64,000 bases of DNA from Prasinococcaceae sp. CCMP 1430 (taxonomy: Eukaryota > Prasinodermophyta > Palmophyllophyceae > Prasinococcales > Prasinococcaceae): contig RQSC01001165.1 in NCBI GenBank assembly GCA_013416795.1, forward strand, positions 57,662 through 121,661, in the 5' to 3' direction. Numbering within the stretch: position 1 is the stretch's first letter; every line of letters begins with the position of its first letter. Position numbers and translations under genes: made by a program. This document shows, one piece after another, positions 33,351 to 43,363 of the stretch. A model generated the notes under the pieces. That model searched no databases. It saw only the letters and a list, made by a program, of their open reading frames with translations, and had not been told where the DNA came from.

Positions 33351-35711
33351 TCACTTTTTCCCGACGTGAAACCACCACTGCCAGGCGGCGGCGATGAGGC
33401 GGTAGAGGACCGTCATGGCTATCAGGACGCCCGAGTTGCCCCAGATGTCGCGACCCGGAACGCCCGCTCCGATGTCGTACAGAGTGAGCACATCGTCTCC
33501 CGGGACGGACTCCTGGCCTGGCTCGCAGAAGCTCAGCGTGCTGCTCTGGGTGCACGCGAAGCTGGCGCCCTCGAATTCGTTGGTCATGAAGCTCGCGAAG
33601 CTGTAACTGTGAAACCCAACCCAGTGCAGCCATCTCCACCACCAGCCGATCTTGTCGAGCGTGATGAAGAAGCCCTGCACCACCACTGCAAGTGTCAGAG
33701 GCGCGCGCGGGCGCGCGAGCGGTCAGCAAGGTCAGCGCCCGCGTCTGGCCCCACGAGGCGGCGAGGAGCGCTCGCCTTTCCTTCCTTCCGTGGATACCAC
33801 GCTTCGTCGTGCGCGCGGGGGAGCGCGGCGAGGGGCGCGCACGCACTGAAGGTCCCGTAGATGAAAGCACCCACGGCGATGCCCACGACGAAAAAGGGCA
33901 CAATGCTGGCGACAACGAACATCAAGGCCTCAGCGCACGCAAAGGATATGAAGAGGTTCCACACGAAGAAGAAGAAGGCGTTGACGTCCGAGTTAAGGCC
34001 GATGAGCCAGTACGTTATCGACGAGCAGATGAGCGACAGCAGAAAGAGGAAGGGGAGCGATACGATGGCGTTAGCCACGTTGTACGCGGCCACCCCGTAC
34101 GTGCCGTTCGCCCGGTCGCGGATGAAGATCAGCTTGTCCTCGAGATACGCCGGAAGGACGCTGATGCTCATGAACACCTTGAAAGCCGCGATGAAGAACA
34201 GGACGTTGACAATGTCTTGGATGTCGTCGGCCTGCGTGCCTATTTGCAGCCACACTGTTCCAATCATGATACCCAGAGCGATGTACTGCGACGAGCGCGC
34301 GGCCACGGGCGTGAGCACGGGGGCGTGGGCGCAGCGCGCGGCGAGTGCGCAGGCCGGGCACATGCGCGCTTGCAGGCGCGCGTGCGCGCTCGCGCGGCTT
34401 TGCACTGCGCCCGGGCGTGCGTACCATAGCAAAGCGGAGCCACATGTACGCTGGGTTCCTCACCACGTTGACGAGCATGAGGCGGGAAAGCACCACCGTC
34501 TGCCATAGAATGGAAGAGTCAGAGCTGCTCCCAGCGGTCAGTAGCGTCCACAGAGGTGCCTGGAAGCCCCTCGCCTCGCTCTCCTTCAGTGCTGTGTCCA
34601 CCGCATCGCCTTTACCCGTACTGAGCACGGCGTCGAGCAGGTGCTTCGCCTCGGAGCTGTCGTAGGCGTCCAGAATTTCATCGACAGTCTCGTGCTCCTG
34701 AAAAGAGGTGTCCACCAGGTCGAGCATCCATTCGGCGCCGCTCGTGAGGGGCGGCACCTTGTGACCGAGTCCGGTGAAGTGGTCGACGGCGTTGGCCGTC
34801 AGGCCGAAGTATGCCGTGCGGCCGCCCGAGAGCAGCAGCAGCCCGTTGCTGAGATCGAAGACCTTCTCGCCCGGCTGATGGATGGTGAGCACGGTGGTCG
34901 TCCCGAGCGTCTTGGCCACCTCGTTCAGGGAGCGCACGACGTGGAGCGCGGCCGCCGAGTCCAGGCCACTCGTGGGCTCGTCCAAGAAGATGATGCGCGG
35001 GCGCGCGACGAGCTGCACACCGACCGACACGCGCCGCTTTTGCCCACCGGAGAGCCCGCGGAAGAGCAGGCCGCCGATCTTGGTGTCCGCCTGGTCGTCG
35101 AGGCCCATGGCGCCCATCGCGGCTCGCGCCCGCTCGCGCGCCTCCGCCTCGTCCCACGGACAGTACATCCGGGCGTAGTAGAGCAGCGTTTCGTGCGTCG
35201 TGAGCGCCGCCGAGAGGACGTCGTCCTGCTGCACGTACTTGGCCACGGTCTTGAAGGTCAGCTCGTCCTTTGGCTCGCCGTCGACGGTCACGCCGCCCGT
35301 GACCCTCAGCTTGACGCGGTCCGCCAGCGCGTCCAGAAGCGAGCTCTTCCCCGCGCCCGATGGGCCCATGAGAAAGAGCACGCAGCCGGGCTTGGCAGCG
35401 CCGCTCACACCGTCGAGGATGCGCTTGTAGCCTCCGTCTGGCGTATGCACGCCGAAGCTGATGTCGCGGAAGCGCAGCCACGCGCCGCCAGCGCTGAGGC
35501 TCTGCGAGCCGCAGCGATGCGCCACGCCGTTCCCATCGAACGACGTCGCGCTCGAAGACGCCGACACAGCCACGGGTGCACCGTCGCCGCCTGTCGGCGT
35601 GCTGCCGCCGCGGCCGCCAGCCCCGCTCGGTGCGATAGCGCCGTGGTCGCTGCCGCCGCCGACAGTGCCGAGCTCGATCACGTGCGTCCCGCCATCGTCA
35701 CCGGAGGCCAT
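33351..35711 (-). CDS. ABCG half-size transporter (3 exons)
   Basis: Exons 34425-35711, 33847-34285 and 33351-33685 (introns of 139 and 161 nt) give 686 aa, the normal size for an ABCG half transporter. The ATPase domain comes first: Walker A GPSGAGKSSLLDAL at about 116-129, signature LSGGQKRRVSVGVQL, Walker B with IIFLDEPTSGLDS, and a switch His in VLTIHQPGEKVFDL. The membrane half follows with six hydrophobic segments, the junction GTF+MVVQGFFITLDKIG rebuilt by splicing, and a large cysteine-containing loop before the last helix. Start MASGDDGGTHVIELG is the first ATG in the conserved frame. ABCG proteins export lipids, sterols or hormones as dimers; the substrate cannot be told. It diverges from the SGS3-like gene. 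Confidence 0.93.
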
Positions 35712-36749
35712 GCCGCGCGGCGCGGCGTGGCGCAATCGCGCGTGGCGGCTCCACGTGCACGCTGGGCGGCGCAGCGGCAAATTGCCAAGCTCTCAGCAAA
35801 TTGACGGCAATGCCCCGCGCACACGCCTTGCGCGCTGTGCTGCGCCCTCTGGCCGCCGCTCCTCTTCACCCCCCCCCCCCACCCCACACACCTCTCTCCC
35901 TGCGCCACTGTGGCGGCGCCCATCTGGGGCCCCACCTGCGGGCTCCGCCCCGCCCCCGCGCGCCGCGCGCCCCGCTGCGAATGGCGACCGCGACATTCAC
36001 CAGATCATTCAGCTGCGCCGCGCCTCACGCCGCCCGCCGCGCCGCATCACGTGACGGCCGCGCCGACGGCGCCCGCCATCACCTCGCCGCCCGCCGCAAA
36101 TAACGTCACATCCACATCACGTCACCGTCACAGCGTTTGATGCACATCAAAGCACATCGCATCGCAACATCACATCGCCTCGCACGCGGCATTGCCGCAG
36201 AGGGGCCCGGGCGCGACCCGCAGTGCGCGATGCGAGCAATTCAATTCAATGAACGGCTGCGTCAGCGGGCCGCCAACGCCCAGACGGCTGCGCCAAAATG
36301 CTATAATAAGAAAAGTAGAGGACATGTAACCACGGGCGACTGAAGTGTTCGATGCGGGCCGATCGCGCCGAGCGGGATTTTTTGGCGCGCGCGCGGCGAT
36401 GCGCGTAGGCGCGTGCGCGCACGCGTGCGGGCACACAGCGTGCGACGCCTGCGGCAGGCGGGGTGGGGGCAACGACGCGCCGCACGTGGGCAGCGGAAGG
36501 GGTGGAGGTGGCAGTACGAGGCTGCCGGGGCCGCCAATTCGGGCGCAAGAGGCGCCTCCCCGCCCCCTCGACGCTGCGCACGCGCGCACGCGCGCAGAAT
36601 TGTAACGGCGCGCTCGCGGTCGCGCACCCGAAGCGTGTGGTCAGCCAAGGCGCGGCGCCTCCCTCGCGGCGCGGGGAGGGACATCGCCAGGTCGCCAGGG
36701 GTTGACGCTCCTAGACCGCTGCCGCGCCCCCGTGCCCCCCTCGCCTACC
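35712..36749. promoter_or_regulatory. Divergent promoter region (ABCG / SGS3-like)
   Basis: About 1 kb between divergent starts. It has a C run near 35870-35883, TCACATCACGT-type repeats around 36050-36180, and a less GC-rich core with GCTATAATAAGAAAAG at 36299-36314 that could serve as a TATA-like element. No coding sequence or RNA gene is supported. Confidence 0.45.
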
Positions 36750-39207
36750 ATGCCGTACGACACCACCGACGCGGGGGTGCGCTGGGCTTTAGAGCTCGCG
36801 CAGGCGGTCGTCGCGTGCGAATCTGTCCCTGAAACTCCAGCAACGGCAGCAGCTGCTACCAGACTGGGGGAGCATGGCCGCGCGGCCCTCGCGGGCATGA
36901 TTTCCTGCGCTCCGGCCGGGGTGCAGCCGGTCGGAGAGCTGGCTGATCTCGCCCTCGTGTGCACGGTGCAGCCTGGCAACAGGCTGGCGTGCCGCGCATG
37001 CGTCTCAGGTATGTGGGCGCCAAGATGCTTCTCGCTAGCTAGCTAGCTTTCACACACACGCTTGCGTCTTCCTGCACTGTAATCGCACCCTTAGCAGCAG
37101 CAGCAGCAGCAGCTTCGATGCGATGCCGGCGACCTAACACGTGCAAGCGCGCGTGCACGCGCACCCACTCCATGCCATTGCCAGGCAAGGGGATGAAGCT
37201 CGCGAGCCCGGCAGCGTTATGGCAACACTCCGCAAGCTTTGGGGACGACCAGCACAAGGCCATCCATGAGATGGTGCACCTGCTCGGGTGGGAGCAGGGT
37301 AGTGCGCGGTCTTTGATGTACGCGCGCGGGCCAGCCCCCGTGAGGGACGTGCCAGACGGTGGCGCGTCCGGCGCCTCCGCGTCCGAACCGGACGACCCTG
37401 ATGTGCGCGATCAGCTCAAGGAGTACGAGGCCAACCCCGCTGGAGGGCCAAGGCACGAAGCTCAGGCGGTCGCAAGACAGTGTGCTGATGGAAAGCTACA
37501 ATGTCGCGCATGCTTCGGGGCCAGGGCGACCGTGAGCGGCCTGGTTGGGCTTCAGCAACATGCGTCTGCACCGAGGTTCGCCTCTTGTAGGCGCCATCGT
37601 GCGATAAAATTCTGGCTCGAGAGGGCAGGGTACTCACCGGGGTCGATTCGCGTCGAGCCCACAAGCAAGGCCAACCGGATTGTACTACCGCCACCTCAGC
37701 AGCAGCCGACCACCAAGAGAGCGCGCACGTCTTCGCAAGGTCCAGCAACGCGCACGGAGTTGACTCTCTCGTCCAGCGGTCACGTGGTGTGGCCACCCGT
37801 TGTTGTTATCCACAATCTACCGACCAAAAGCTTCCCTTTGTTGATCGTCGACGCGGATGGGAGCCCGCATGACTTGGCGGTGCAGCCTTGGCACACCCGC
37901 GCGGGTAGGAACGGGTCCACGGTGTGTTGGTTCCACAACGAAGAGGTGAGTGTGATGCCTTTGCCTGCTATGTCGCAGGACATGCACACATTCCTGTAGC
38001 TGACGACTGCCGATTGCGTGACAAGGAGCGCGAGCTCGCCACTACGAGCACGTCACTGCAAGGGCAGCGGGTGCCGACGCGCCTTCAATCGCGTCTGTAT
38101 GTCAAGCAGGACACCAACGAGTTATACGGTGCGCAGGACGTCATGAACATGGTCGCCGCCACGGCGGGACTAGAGGACGCACGGCTCGCGAAGACTCCGA
38201 AACTGCTCTGGCGTGGCGCGAACGGCGCGGCCGACGCACGCGGGTGCGCGCTCTTGTTCTTCGATGATAATGTTGACTCCCTGGAGGCGATGCGCAAGCT
38301 CACGCATGCAGCGGAGACTATGGAAAGCGGTCGCGCGGACTGGGAAGCAGAACAGCGCAGACAAAGGAGTCGGCGAGCCCCGCCGAACAGGATGTTCGTC
38401 TTTCGTGGCAGTCTGGCGGATCTCGAAGACGTCGACCCGCACAGGAGCACGAAATGGGCGACTGCCCCACAGCAGGAGGTGGAGGAGACGATGAAGAGGA
38501 TTCAACAGGAACACGAGGAAAGGCGTGAGCAGAAGATCGCGGCGGAACGCGAAGAGGTAGAGAAGCGCTACGCGAATGAGATGGCGTCCCTCGCGTCGAA
38601 AATGGAGTCGCTTGAATCGAGGAAGATGGAAGAGCTCCAAAAACTCGAGCAGTCCTATGGTGCCAAGCTCGCAGCAAAGGATGGCGAGCTGGCGATGAAG
38701 GATGGCGAGCTGGCGAAAAAAGATCAGGAAATCGATGATGTGGAAGAAGGTACGGACGGGCGCAACTAGTCGCGTGCATGCGATTGCAAACCCTGAGGAG
38801 AGCTCCGTGTTGCGCCCCATTCGTTTCTCTCGGCGTGATCGATGCCATCAGTGCGAGCACGGCTTGCACCTGACAAAGCTTGGCGCGGACTGTCTCGCCT
38901 AACGCCTGGCCATGACTGTCCAAACGAAGAGTACACACACACCACGGTGTTCATCGGCAGGCTGCAGGACAAGCTGGAAGATATGAAGGCAGCGTATGAT
39001 CGTGTCGTGGAAGTTGGGACGATCGATTTCTCGGCGCAGCGAAAGAGTGACTTCCAAAGCTTCGCAAAGGATCTGACGCAGGCTGTCGAAGAACGCCACG
39101 AGGAGCGAACACGACGACGACAGCTGTCGCTGGACGCGAAGGCGATGGCAAGGTCAGTACGATTGCCCGCATGGGCGGAGCACGCGCTGAATCAACGGCG
39201 CGAGTGA
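36750..39207 (+). CDS. SGS3-like protein: two zf-XS fingers, XS domain, coiled coil (4 exons)
   Basis: Model 36750-37008, 37185-37945, about 38026-38749 and about 38930-39207 (sum divisible by 3, about 673 aa). The first splice (phase 1) is firm; the acceptors at 38025 and 38929 are best guesses. Two zinc-finger units share C-x2-C then a QH: CRACVSG+KGMKLASPAALWQHSAS and CRACFGARATVSGLVGLQQHA, as in zf-XS. The XS domain starts at SSGHVVWPPVVVIHNLP and continues with RGCALLFFDDNVDSLEAMRKL and MFVFRGSLADLEDVD, matching SGS3 segments in order. A long charged coiled coil (EETMKRIQQEHEERREQK onward) follows. No XH domain is visible, so it is closer to SGS3 than to IDN2/FDM. SGS3 binds dsRNA with 5' overhangs and works with RDR6 in RNA silencing. 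It converges on the chromodomain gene, 178 nt away. Confidence 0.75.
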
Positions 39208-39385
39208 GTAGGAGGGCTCCTACAACGCCGTCGTAATCCAAACCATATGGAACCGCTCAGCAACTTACACAGGACGACCACAGCCCTACGCGCCCTCCGT
39301 GTACGCGCCTGCTATGTCTGCGGTCGCGTTACCCTCTCTCAGTTCTCCGCCATCCTTATTAGCGGCTCGATGGATCGCTTGCAGC

Positions 39386-41035
39386 CTAGTCATCCCCAAG
39401 GAGCATGATGCTAGGGTGAGGAACGGGGACTCCTTCCTCGAAGGAGCCATCATCGTATGATATGGTGTAGAGTCCGCTCTTCGCATTGAAGTGCGACAGG
39501 AAACCCTCAGACCACTCTTTCTCGCGATTCCAGTATGCTCTCACGCGCTGGCCAACGTAGATGGGCGTGGGCTTGGTCCTTGGGTGCTTTACCGGAGTGC
39601 TCGGTGCATGGTCAGGTGCGCACGCCCTCTTGGTGACGAGCGGCTGCTTTGTCGGCGTGTGCTTTTCGGGCATGACTTGTATGTCCGGATCGGGGAGCGT
39701 GACCTCCTCCTCATCGCCGTCGTCGTACTCGATCTTGTACGCGACACACGAAGACTTGTGCAGCTCACCCCAGTAGCAAGAGCGTTCGTTTCTCCAGTAA
39801 ACACGTACCCTGCATCCGACCAGGTCCGCATAATCGCGAGCTGAACTGTCGTGCCCGTCATCAGCAGCGCCTCCCTCCCACAGGGTGATCTCCTCGTCGG
39901 GCAGGGTCACCTCCTCAGTCTCTCCATCGTCGTAGACGATAGTGTAGGCAGTGAAGGTGGAGCTGGCAAGTGTGCCCCAAAAGTTCATCCCTTCCTGCTT
40001 CCAGAATACGCAGACTCTTGAACCTGCAAGGTCCTCTGCGCTGCAGTGTGGCGACGGCGGTCTTGGCGTCCTCTCGGCCGCGACAGCAGCAACTGCGGCG
40101 TTGCTCTCGTCCTCAGCCGCATATCGCGTGCGCTTGAGGTACCTGAAGCCGTTGTCGGCCTCGTACGTCCCCACGACGTCGCTCGGCAGTCTCCTCCTTG
40201 GCTCCCACGTGCAATGAGACGCGTCATATCCCTTCCACTTGACCAGAAACTCGACAATCTTCTTGGACGGGTTGGATCGGCGCCCAATGATGCTCTCAAC
40301 TTCGTACAGGCCGTCTTGTCCCTCTTGCTCGCAAGTCTCCTGACCGTCTCCCTCGTCACGGCCCTGAGCTGTCTCGCCGAACGTATCTTCTCCTGACTCT
40401 GATGTCGAGGAGGACCCTGGGCCTGACCACTCCGGCACAACAACCTGGCCAGGGGCACCCTGCCTGAGGATCTCAGAGTCGGCCACGTCCGGGAAGGGGA
40501 CCTCTTCCTCCAGCTCCGCACTCCTCTCAGTGTCCAGGATGCGTACAAGCGGCACCGAGGGTGGAAAGGCCAAATCGGGCAGCTCGCAGAATCCAGCCGC
40601 ACTCGGCGCGCTGGCTGGCGCATCATCCCCGATGCCCTGGCGGTCCGCACTTCCGTCGCTCGATCCTTCCAAGCACAGCACCAGCGACGACGAAGGCGAG
40701 CAGGCATGAACCTGCACTTCACCTCGCACAAAGCCCGTGAAGTCCAATTGGACGTATGCCGCGTTGCGGCTGGCTTCTTCTGCGAACGTGCGGAAGCCAC
40801 AGCCAAGTAACAGGCCATGGTCGACCTGCCGGACCGCCACGGGCCAGACACGGCAGGGCCAGTGACCCGCCATCTTGAGCAGCACGAGCCTCGTGTCTGC
40901 TGTGACGCCAGTCACCACGGGGGGTGACTGAAGTGCATCAGCAAGATTGATTGTGACACGCGGCTCGTGCTGCTCAAGATGCCGGGTCACTGGCCCTGCC
41001 ATGTCTGGCCCGCGGCGGTCCGGCAGGTCGACCAT
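39386..41035 (-). CDS. Chromodomain protein with three Tudor-like modules
   Basis: Single exon, 549 aa from ATG 41035. Residues 1-90 are unusual because they lie in an inverted repeat. An acidic linker leads to a chromodomain at about 245-300: YEVESIIGRRSN, EFLVKWKGYDASHCTWEPRRRL, with the Tyr, Trp and Trp/Glu positions of the methyl-lysine cage present. Three Tudor-like modules follow: GSRVCVFWKQEGMNFWGTL ... YDDGETEEVTLPD, GCRVRVYWRNERSCYWGEL ... YDDGDEEEVTLPD, and GQRVRAYWNREKEWSEGFL ... YDDGSFEEGVPVPHP. The architecture suggests a multivalent histone reader. A chromodomain of this sort also occurs at the end of chromovirus integrases, but no integrase, RT or LTR is visible here. A start at the Met near 40873 would exclude most of the repeat. 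Confidence 0.75.
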   Translation of the reverse strand: MVDLPDRRGPDMAGPVTRHLEQHEPRVTINLADALQSPPVVTGVTADTRLVLLKMAGHWPCRVWPVAVRQVDHGLLLGCGFRTFAEEASRNAAYVQLDFTGFVRGEVQVHACSPSSSLVLCLEGSSDGSADRQGIGDDAPASAPSAAGFCELPDLAFPPSVPLVRILDTERSAELEEEVPFPDVADSEILRQGAPGQVVVPEWSGPGSSSTSESGEDTFGETAQGRDEGDGQETCEQEGQDGLYEVESIIGRRSNPSKKIVEFLVKWKGYDASHCTWEPRRRLPSDVVGTYEADNGFRYLKRTRYAAEDESNAAVAAVAAERTPRPPSPHCSAEDLAGSRVCVFWKQEGMNFWGTLASSTFTAYTIVYDDGETEEVTLPDEEITLWEGGAADDGHDSSARDYADLVGCRVRVYWRNERSCYWGELHKSSCVAYKIEYDDGDEEEVTLPDPDIQVMPEKHTPTKQPLVTKRACAPDHAPSTPVKHPRTKPTPIYVGQRVRAYWNREKEWSEGFLSHFNAKSGLYTISYDDGSFEEGVPVPHPSIMLLGDD

Positions 41036-41037
41036 CG
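40816..41037. repeat. Near-perfect 76-bp inverted repeat at the 5' end of the chromodomain gene
   Basis: Bases 40816-40891 are the reverse complement of 40962-41037 with about four mismatches over 76 bp. The spacer is 70 nt (40892-40961). The gene's first ATG (41033-41035) lies in the outer arm, so its mRNA would fold into a long hairpin of about 72 paired bases over the start region. Both arms are in the predicted coding frame. Confidence 0.9.
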
Positions 41038-41430
41038 CCTACAAGGGCAAGGTGAAGTTTGCTGCACTTCCCGTTCCCCCCAGGCAATTGGTATCAGGAG
41101 GCGGGCCAAGCTTTTTTTGGATGTCGACGGTTTTTCGGGCGGGGCCTCTTCGGCGCGGCGTCCACGCGGCGCGCCGACGCTGAGCCCAATGACCGAGAAA
41201 TTGCCCGAGTATGGTTCCTCCTTCCCCACCCTCCTCACGCCCGCACGCTGCAGACTCTCACGTGCGCGTGCGCGCCGCTGCGCTGTGCGCGCTTGTGTGC
41301 GCCGCGGCCGCTGCGTTGCGTCGCGCGCGTGGTGTGGTGCATCGCCTCCGCCGCGCGCGCACGCGCATTCACTGTGCGGGCATTGTGCGATTGAATGCTC
41401 ATTGTTGTAACCGACGCACGCCGGCCGCGC

Positions 41431-41818
41431 TTGGCGCGAGTGCCGTCGCGCGCACACTATTGCTCGCGTCCGTGCGCGCGCGCGCAGCGCCAGGGGGACG
41501 CGAGGGCGGCAATAACCTTTGTGAGTGCGATGCGCAAGCTCCCCCGCCATCCTCCCATTCTCTGTGCGCGCGCGGCGCTACAAGGCCCGCCACCCCTGCC
41601 GCCGGGGCGTACACGCCGTCCGCGAGTGCCATCGCCGCGCACGCTAGTGCTCGCGTGAGTCGCGTCGGTGCGCGCGAGCGCAGCGCCAGGGGGACGCGAG
41701 GGCGGCCATACCCTTTTTGAGTTCGATGCGCAAGCTCATCCGCCATCCTTCCATTCTCTGTGCGCGAGCGGTGCGACAAGGCCCGCCACCCCTGCCGCCA
41801 GGGCGTACACGCCGTCGC
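41431..41818. repeat. Two-copy tandem duplication, period 196 bp
   Basis: Bases from about 41445 recur 196 nt later (for example CAGGGGGACGCGAGGGCGGC at 41491 and 41687, and CAAGGCCCGCCACCCCTGCC at 41581 and 41777). A 10-nt length difference near the left edge reduces the offset there to 186. I estimate identity at about 85-90%. It lies wholly between genes, in the presumed promoter of the chromodomain gene. Confidence 0.85.
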
Positions 41819-41939
41819 CGCGTGCGCCCGCACGCCGCCGCCGCGCCCGCACCGGCATTGAGGAGCGCCTCCGTTGGCTGCCTGCCGCCGTACAGCACGG
41901 ACCGGCACGCGCGCGCGCGCGCACGAATGCGCGCGTCGC

Positions 41940-42250
41940 GTCCGTTCCCGGGAGTTCGACAAGATCTCCCGTGGTCATATCAGATATAATTATTAACTGA
42001 TGAAGAGTTTTCATTCGCGTAAAAATTCATATCACATCGAAAGTCGGATTCATTTTGATATAATATCAAATAGCAGAGAGAATGTTGGTGTGCATCCATC
42101 AAATGAGTTCCCATGCGGCTCGCGCCGTGCCAGCGCATCGCCTCAGCCAATGAAAGCAAAGTTTGAGCAGCGTGAGCACTCCAAGGAGCGTAGCCCCCTC
42201 GGATGTGCGCACTCTATAAAAGTCTCGCTTTTTAAGGGCAAAATATAACG
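41940..42250. other. AT-rich island with TATA box and short palindrome
   Basis: From about 41965 to 42100 the sequence changes sharply to AT-rich (ATATAATTATTAACTGATG), unlike anything else in the window. It contains an odd palindrome TTTGATAT-A-ATATCAAA at 42054-42070. A consensus TATAAAAG lies at 42215-42222 on the + strand, followed by TTTTTAAGG. No protein or known RNA gene starts within the next 150 nt, so the TATA box has no visible target. It could be the remnant of an inserted element or the promoter of an unrecognised short RNA. Confidence 0.5.
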
Positions 42251-42417
42251 TGGCTCGGGTCAGACATCGCGATGCCGCGCGCAGGCGCTCGCATGCGCAT
42301 GTCAACAGCGCCCGCGCCCGCGCTGCGCCTCGAATGCCCGTGTGCACTGCAACCGCGTCGCCGAGCGCACGCAGCGCTCCCGCGCTCACTTGCAGTGCTG
42401 CACGCCCCCGCCGGCCT

Positions 42418-43363
42418 CTAGCCGCTGGGATGCATAGTGAGGACCTCGATGGAGGTCGCTAATCCCATGGGGCGCGCAGAGGTGGGTCGCCTCCGCTCCT
42501 CCGCTTCCTTGTGGGGCTTGTGGAAGAGGGGCTGCGCTACTGACTTGTAGTTGAAGTGGCCCCAGGTGCTGGGTGACATCATGAGGCGCACCGAGAGCTT
42601 CACCAGGTCGAGTGGCAGGAACCAAATGATGTCCCAGACCCATGCGACGCCCGCCCAGTTCCAGCCTGCGCCGCGCACCTTCGTGAAGCCCCAGTTGGCA
42701 TAGACGCCGATGAATGTGGCCACCAGCTGCGCGATGACAAAAGCCAGCGCGAGCAAGATGCTCGGCCGCTGCATGAAGAAAAAACCCTGCGAGCGGGAGA
42801 CAAAGATGACTGCCTGCCCGAGGATGGACACTTGCAGGTACACGACGTTGTGAAAGACGAAGCTGTTCACTCCAGAGTCGTTTTGGGTCGAGTCGCCGAA
42901 GCGGATCTCTTCTGCATCCCTCAGGTTGAAGTGGTCGACGAAGAAGTTTGTCTCGCGCGCGACCACCACGAAAACGACCGTCGAGGCCGCCAGGTACAAG
43001 CCGATGACGATGCCTTCAATGAAGAGCTTCCAGAGGCGCCACACGTCCGGGGTGCGGCTCGGGCTGACGCGATCTGTACTCACGGTCATGATGGTGCCGT
43101 CGTTCAGATAGGCGAGGATGAGGATCATGAATGGTGGCATGTTGAACCGAAAGGCCCACACTAGAACGCTGAATCGCGTGACAATGCCCACCGTAGTCGC
43201 GCACGCATACAGCACGTACGACTTCATCCGCTGAAAGATGCATCGACTCTCGATGATGGCGTCGATGATGACGCTGAGGCCTTTCTCCGTCAGCACGATG
43301 TCGCTCGCCCCGCGCGCGGCGTCGGTGGCGTCGGCAACGGCCACGCCGACGTGGGCCACCTTC

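Follow-up and report, generated by a model that had tools for sequence, protein, structure and literature searches.

The window analysed here is the whole 64,000-nucleotide stretch taken from contig RQSC01001165.1 (assembly GCA_013416795.1), with a GC content of 59-75% by 2-kb blocks. On its forward strand lies a split nuclear gene for a divergent protein of the XS family, in which two zinc fingers, an XS domain and a coiled coil succeed one another much as in SUPPRESSOR OF GENE SILENCING 3 (SGS3) of land plants and charophytes (Table 1). The start codon at 36750 is preceded by an in-frame stop at 36603, and exons 1-3 are in frame with one another through GT-AG sites whose donors read GTATGT (intron 1) and GTGAGT (intron 2). 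The frame of exon 3 is open as far as a TAG at 38767-38769, giving a three-exon protein of 587 residues. The claimed frame has the top codon score of six in all three exons, although the score of exon 2 is slightly negative and its frame barely ahead of the other five. In the genome, which totals 24,521,569 bases in 145 contigs, the gene was found once: exons 2 and 3, used as protein queries, matched nothing else.

The product carries, as judged by profile comparison, an XS domain, and its homology to plant XS domains exceeds chance controls drawn from shuffles and from the open reading frames (ORFs) of the window. Pfam PF03468 is matched in two pieces, the best stretch being residues 407-454; the whole protein scores 24.5 bits (E 3.6e-5) against a curated whole-protein cut-off of 25 bits, and the isolated XS region scores 26.3 bits (E 9.8e-6). 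Independent plant profiles were made from the listed matches to an SGS3 stretch (240 proteins matched, 120 listed, the named ones being land plants). A profile of 67 plant SGS3 sequences gives 40.3 on finger 2 plus XS, compared with at most 24.7 in 150 shuffles. Of the window's ORFs, 133 are at least 200 residues long, two of them belonging to this gene; across these the same profile gives 39.5 for the exon 2 ORF and 28.8 for the best ORF outside the gene; the exon 3 ORF alone reaches only 20.7. A profile of 91 plant XS segments recovers the protein with E 1.7e-4; of 620 sequences compared, none but the protein and the ORFs of its two exons scores at E<=10. Finger 2, the WPP strand and the XS core are collinear with the plant proteins, and the landmarks WPPVVVIHN, RGCALLFF, GRADW and MFVFRGSLADLEDVDPH appear in plant order, with 16-26% identity to plant SGS3 sequences in the aligned exon pieces. 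The algal domain is split by about 63 extra residues, 77 residues separating its first strand from the remainder as against 14 in 67 of 70 measured plant proteins.

That unrelated ORFs were joined by eye into an apparent gene is very improbable. Long ORFs are common in so GC-rich a window, where the 133 frames just mentioned run from stop to stop, and a proposed fourth exon does not join cleanly; yet the profile scores stand well above those of shuffles and other ORFs, and the XS pieces lie on two exons in the correct order and the correct frame. The gene is real. What needs revision is its 3' end. An earlier note on this DNA had described a four-exon spliced product, of which exons 1-3 stand but exon 4 does not in the form proposed: through the donor at 38750 (GTACGG) and the acceptor at 38961 it is read out of frame and meets a stop after 8 codons. 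Among the joins listed, 25 connect exons 3 and 4 in frame, all with another donor or another acceptor; these alternative sites were assessed by eye, without scoring. Exon 4, in which the claimed frame again has the top codon score, has no Pfam match at E<=0.01. Since the consensus-like sites leave exon 4 out of frame, the C terminus may reflect a gene of three exons, a different splice or a fault in the assembly.

Upstream of the XS domain we conclude that there are two zinc fingers. Among 20,000 shuffles of the N-terminal 290 residues, none produced two units of the form C-x2-C-x14-18-H-x10-13-H, and 68 produced one. Fingers of this general kind number 79 among the 120 listed plant proteins, with the spacing C-x2-C-x18-H-x11-H in 76 of the 79. 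Their CxxC-to-H loop counts 18 residues in 78 of 79, as against 16 and 15 in the alga, which makes the algal first loop shorter by 2-3 residues; the two histidines are 12 (finger 1) and 11 (finger 2) residues apart, compared with 11 in plants. Pfam zf-XS (PF03470) matched neither finger, alone or in context, and a plant zinc-finger profile did not return the XS protein among its best 14 rows. Beyond the ligands, 586 of 5000 shuffles were as good as finger 1 and 264 of 20,000 as good as finger 2, which aligns with plant zf-XS once a gap of three residues is placed in the first loop. By this comparison only finger 2 is like the plant finger outside the ligand positions; it is perhaps of zf-XS descent. 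A duplicated zf-XS finger could not be taken as demonstrated, the hhalign scores of the fingers alone (19.9 and 22.1) being within the shuffle range (up to 24.7).

Structure prediction with AlphaFold2 gave a mean predicted local distance difference test (pLDDT) of 54.7 and a predicted template modelling score (pTM) of 0.42 for the exon 2 piece, and 64.2 and 0.43 for the exon 3 piece, both too weak for a fold search. Aided by the plant alignment, finger 2 is modelled as two strands and two helices with block-mean pLDDT 73-90, the remainder being poor. The strand-helix order of XS in the exon 3 model is compatible, no more, with an RRM-like fold minus its first strand. Searched against solved structures, the spliced protein matched nothing at E<=1, a plant SGS3 fragment had one chance-level match (E 0.35) and a profile of the exon 3-plant SGS3 alignment had two (E 0.13 and 0.4), so that no XS structure is available for comparison. 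After the XS domain, a single helix is predicted to start at 38470 and to run on to 38628, where the construct ends, with block-mean pLDDT 73-98. Pfam finds no XH domain (PF03469) in the 587-residue model or in exon 4; a genome search with PF03469 returned zero candidates, and no control was matched either.

Several readings of the earlier note are borne out by these results: the XS domain with VVWPPVVVIHN, matched in two pieces by PF03468 and upheld by the plant-profile controls, the long coiled coil, which the predicted helix supports, and the lack of a detectable XH domain. Its tandem zf-XS finger does not yet hold: two CxxC..H..H units do precede XS, but with no zf-XS match, with shorter loops and with only finger 2 plant-like. 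'SGS3-like' suits the finger-XS-coil order without XH, and the protein may be an orthologue of SGS3 and not of IDN2/FDM.

Table 1. Coordinates of the features described; positions refer to the window unless a contig label is given.
Feature	Position	Strand	Content or basis
Exon 1	36750..37008	+	start codon, N-terminal part and the CRAC of finger 1; donor CAG/GTATGT
Intron 1	37009-37184	+	interrupts finger 1
Exon 2	37185..37945	+	finger 1 remainder, finger 2, VVWPPVVVIHN, first half of insert
Exon 2 splice sites	37185..37945	+	acceptor CCAG/GCA, donor GAG/GTGAGT
Intron 2	37946-38025	+	inside XS insert
Exon 3	38026..38749	+	insert end, XS remainder, most of coiled coil
Possible exon 4	38961..39207	+	coiled-coil-like; best codon score of six frames
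Finger 1, C-x2-C-x16-H-x12-H	36990..37267	+	spacing; interrupted by intron 1
Finger 2, C-x2-C-x15-H-x11-H	37502..37597	+	directly upstream of XS
XS first strand VVWPPVVVIHN	37784..37816	+	aligns with plant strand bearing WPPM
Insert inside XS	37817..38115	+	77 residues; holds intron 2; codon scores
XS remainder (RGCALLFF..., GRADW, NRMFVFRGSLADLEDVDPH)	38116..38442	+	alignment to plant SGS3
Coiled coil	38470..38749	+	AlphaFold2 helix to 38628; sequence only beyond 38628
RecQ-type helicase + PHD + cellular RNA-dependent RNA polymerase	G000:C79, L023:934-7482	-	single open frame, outside window
Kynureninase-HAAO (KYU-HAAO) fusion	L025:1158-3740	-	one 860-residue frame

The protein can be set beside two groups of plant proteins; papers are cited below by PMC number. 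With SGS3, a partner of RDR6 that binds 5'-overhang double-stranded RNA and serves small-RNA amplification in land plants, it shares a CxxC..H..H finger, an XS domain with a WPP strand, a coiled coil and the lack of XH. It differs in its second, upstream finger, in the short finger loops that Pfam zf-XS does not match, in the enlarged XS domain, and in belonging to a lineage outside the streptophytes, in which no partner of the RDR6 type came to light. Finger, XS and coiled coil are also combined in IDN2/RDM12 and FDM1-5, a likeness of domain order, but these possess the XH domain that was not found in the algal protein. We consider, with a probability of roughly 55%, that the gene encodes a divergent XS-family protein of SGS3-type order that dimerises, binds RNA for an RNA-dependent RNA polymerase (RdRP) and amplifies Argonaute silencing. 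What is established is homology to XS, the order of the domains and the co-occurrence of RdRP and Argonaute genes in this genome; the activities are proposed by analogy. The protein would dimerise through its coiled coil, its XS domain and coil would bind double-stranded or partly paired RNA, and the bound RNA would be held for the RdRP, which would copy silencing triggers and so amplify silencing by Argonaute. In IDN2 the XS domain and coiled coil suffice for double-stranded RNA binding, and XS is required in both IDN2 and SGS3 (PMC3342958).

In the genome one Argonaute (Piwi 72.6 bits; PAZ 24.2 bits, below the cut-off of 28.8) and one RdRP were found, and the check for both suggested in the earlier note was thus positive. 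The open frame of the RdRP is 2183 residues long and also encodes DEAD, Helicase_C and PHD domains. It resembles the helicase-fused RDR-gamma of oomycetes, Dictyostelium, Hydra and Nematostella in carrying DEAD and Helicase_C ahead of the RdRP domain (PMC4791657), but the structures that its helicase part matches belong to the RecQ family, and a PHD finger sits between helicase and RdRP. With E<=0.001 as the limit, 24 structures match the helicase part; 21 have RecQ-family names (RecQ, Q1, Q4, Q5, Bloom) and the other three are named 'ATP-dependent DNA helicase' only. The RecQ helicase QDE-3 and the RdRP QDE-1 of Neurospora act in one pathway, quelling, as separate proteins. Since a RecQ-type helicase and a PHD finger accompany the one RdRP detected, the RdRP may act on this RNA inside the nucleus, closer to the role of IDN2 than to that of SGS3.

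These same domains, together with nine C5 DNA methylase matches spread over seven contigs and a convergent neighbour encoding a chromodomain-Tudor protein, would fit a chromatin function in which the XS protein would guide DNA methylation like IDN2/FDM and would not amplify RNA like SGS3. Against it, the WPP strand matches SGS3, in a comparison confined to SGS3 sequences, and we regard this explanation as doubtful. The neighbour itself occupies 39386-41038 on the minus strand and combines a chromodomain with three Tudor-like stretches. At the 5' end of its ORF stands a near-perfect hairpin (40812-41040; 86-nt arms, 94% complementary, 57-nt loop) with an RNA fold of -221.5 kcal/mol (z -23), overlapped by an inverted match to the N terminus of the chromodomain-Tudor protein (57% identity, one stop); the hairpin could be a source of small interfering RNA (siRNA) or a miniature inverted-repeat transposable element. 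A direct repeat follows at 41464-41825, with two 166-nt copies 90% identical and 196 nt from start to start. Rfam had no match in 34000-43000.

The protein might also have a genuine XS domain and yet work outside any silencing pathway, in some other RNA role served by its fingers and large insert. Its strong divergence, the 77-residue loop in place of 14 residues, the failure to detect Dicer and the want of relatives all speak for this: no homologue appeared at E<=10 with the XS protein among the 7992 candidates sharing most words, nor with residues 284-470 among 1048 candidates, in a word-based search that is blind to distant kin, in a collection that does contain plant XS proteins. A whole-genome PF03468 search returned zero candidates, missing even this intron-split gene, and is uninformative on further XS genes. 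With the domain order kept and RdRP and Argonaute retained in the genome, a role outside silencing seems unlikely to us.

Against the amplifying role that we prefer, several points must be counted. The whole-protein XS score falls 0.5 bit short of the curated cut-off. Pfam zf-XS is matched by neither finger, and the zf-XS finger is described as characteristic of functional SGS3 (PMC5907777). In the assay used for IDN2, its paralogues IDP1 and IDP2 showed no binding to nucleic acid (PMC3342958), so that an XS protein need not bind RNA. The third-position GC content (GC3) of the gene, 0.71, lies below the 0.75-0.87 of eight in-frame neighbouring stretches. The RdRP motif is DFDGD and not the DLDGD of RDR1, RDR2 and RDR6. 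Finally, Dicer went undetected, which is weak evidence, and without it classical siRNA amplification would not work. Neither RNase III (PF00636, PF14622) nor Dicer_dimer gave a candidate in the genome, in searches that are weak on intron-split genes, PF00636 and PF14622 having matched 8 of 14 control genomes, all bacterial; the earlier suggestion to look for Dicer-like genes along with Argonaute and RdRP was in this respect unrewarded.

The host is probably a prasinodermophyte, Prasinoderma or close kin, on the strength of one gene marker: it has a kynureninase-HAAO fusion as reported in Prasinoderma coloniale (PMC7455551), the single 3-HAO match in the genome falling in the same 860-residue frame as the kynureninase domains. 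The same marker agrees with the microalga supposed earlier. The genome of P. coloniale measures 25.3 Mb with 69.8% GC on 22 chromosomes, and prasinodermophytes are sister to all other green plants (PMC7455551). A genome that looks prasinodermophyte makes it plausible that the amplification machinery is present here in an early or divergent form. The XS family has been called plant-specific (PMC3935573), SGS3 was found in charophytes but not in Chlorophyta, red or brown algae (PMC5907777), and the known pathway of phased siRNAs has been suggested to have evolved only in land plants, no SGS3 being seen outside streptophytes at >50% similarity (PMC4457045), a threshold that would miss a protein this divergent. 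The origin of RDR6 is placed within streptophyte algae in a study whose main text does not mention SGS3 (PMC7994812). The words 'silencing' and 'Argonaute' are both absent from the main text on the P. coloniale genome (PMC7455551), and the titles and abstract beginnings of the open-licence PMC papers listed in literature searches, supplements aside, report no XS protein in Prasinoderma or another prasinophyte.

Transfer of the gene from a streptophyte, in place of inheritance from the green-plant ancestor, would accord with the reported absence of SGS3 from Chlorophyta (PMC5907777) and with GC3, which is lowest in the XS gene and its neighbour among the in-frame stretches measured. The chromodomain-Tudor ORF has a GC3 of 0.70, near that of the XS gene and below the others. 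Such a transfer is nonetheless quite unlikely: identity to the plant SGS3 sequences compared is as low as given above, the protein has an insert and an extra finger of its own, and no closer donor emerged among the plant SGS3 compared, charophytes not included.

The best reading places the XS family near the root of the green plants; the family is known, and the divergent two-fingered algal form is new. Going further, and only tentatively because we think the whole unlikely, one may picture an XS family that predates the Chlorophyta/Streptophyta split and was lost in Chlorophyta, with prasinodermophytes keeping a chromatin-linked RdRP-helicase-PHD amplifier, perhaps Dicer-free, and the SGS3-RDR6 pair derived later. 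The two-fingered XS protein would then pass RNA to a polymerase whose single chain also includes a RecQ-type helicase and a PHD finger; opening the template, reading chromatin and copying RNA would thereby be united in one molecule. Should inheritance from the green-plant ancestor hold true, the origin of the XS family would move to the base of Viridiplantae and would be separated from the origin of RDR6, and the role of XS proteins before trans-acting siRNAs existed would become testable.
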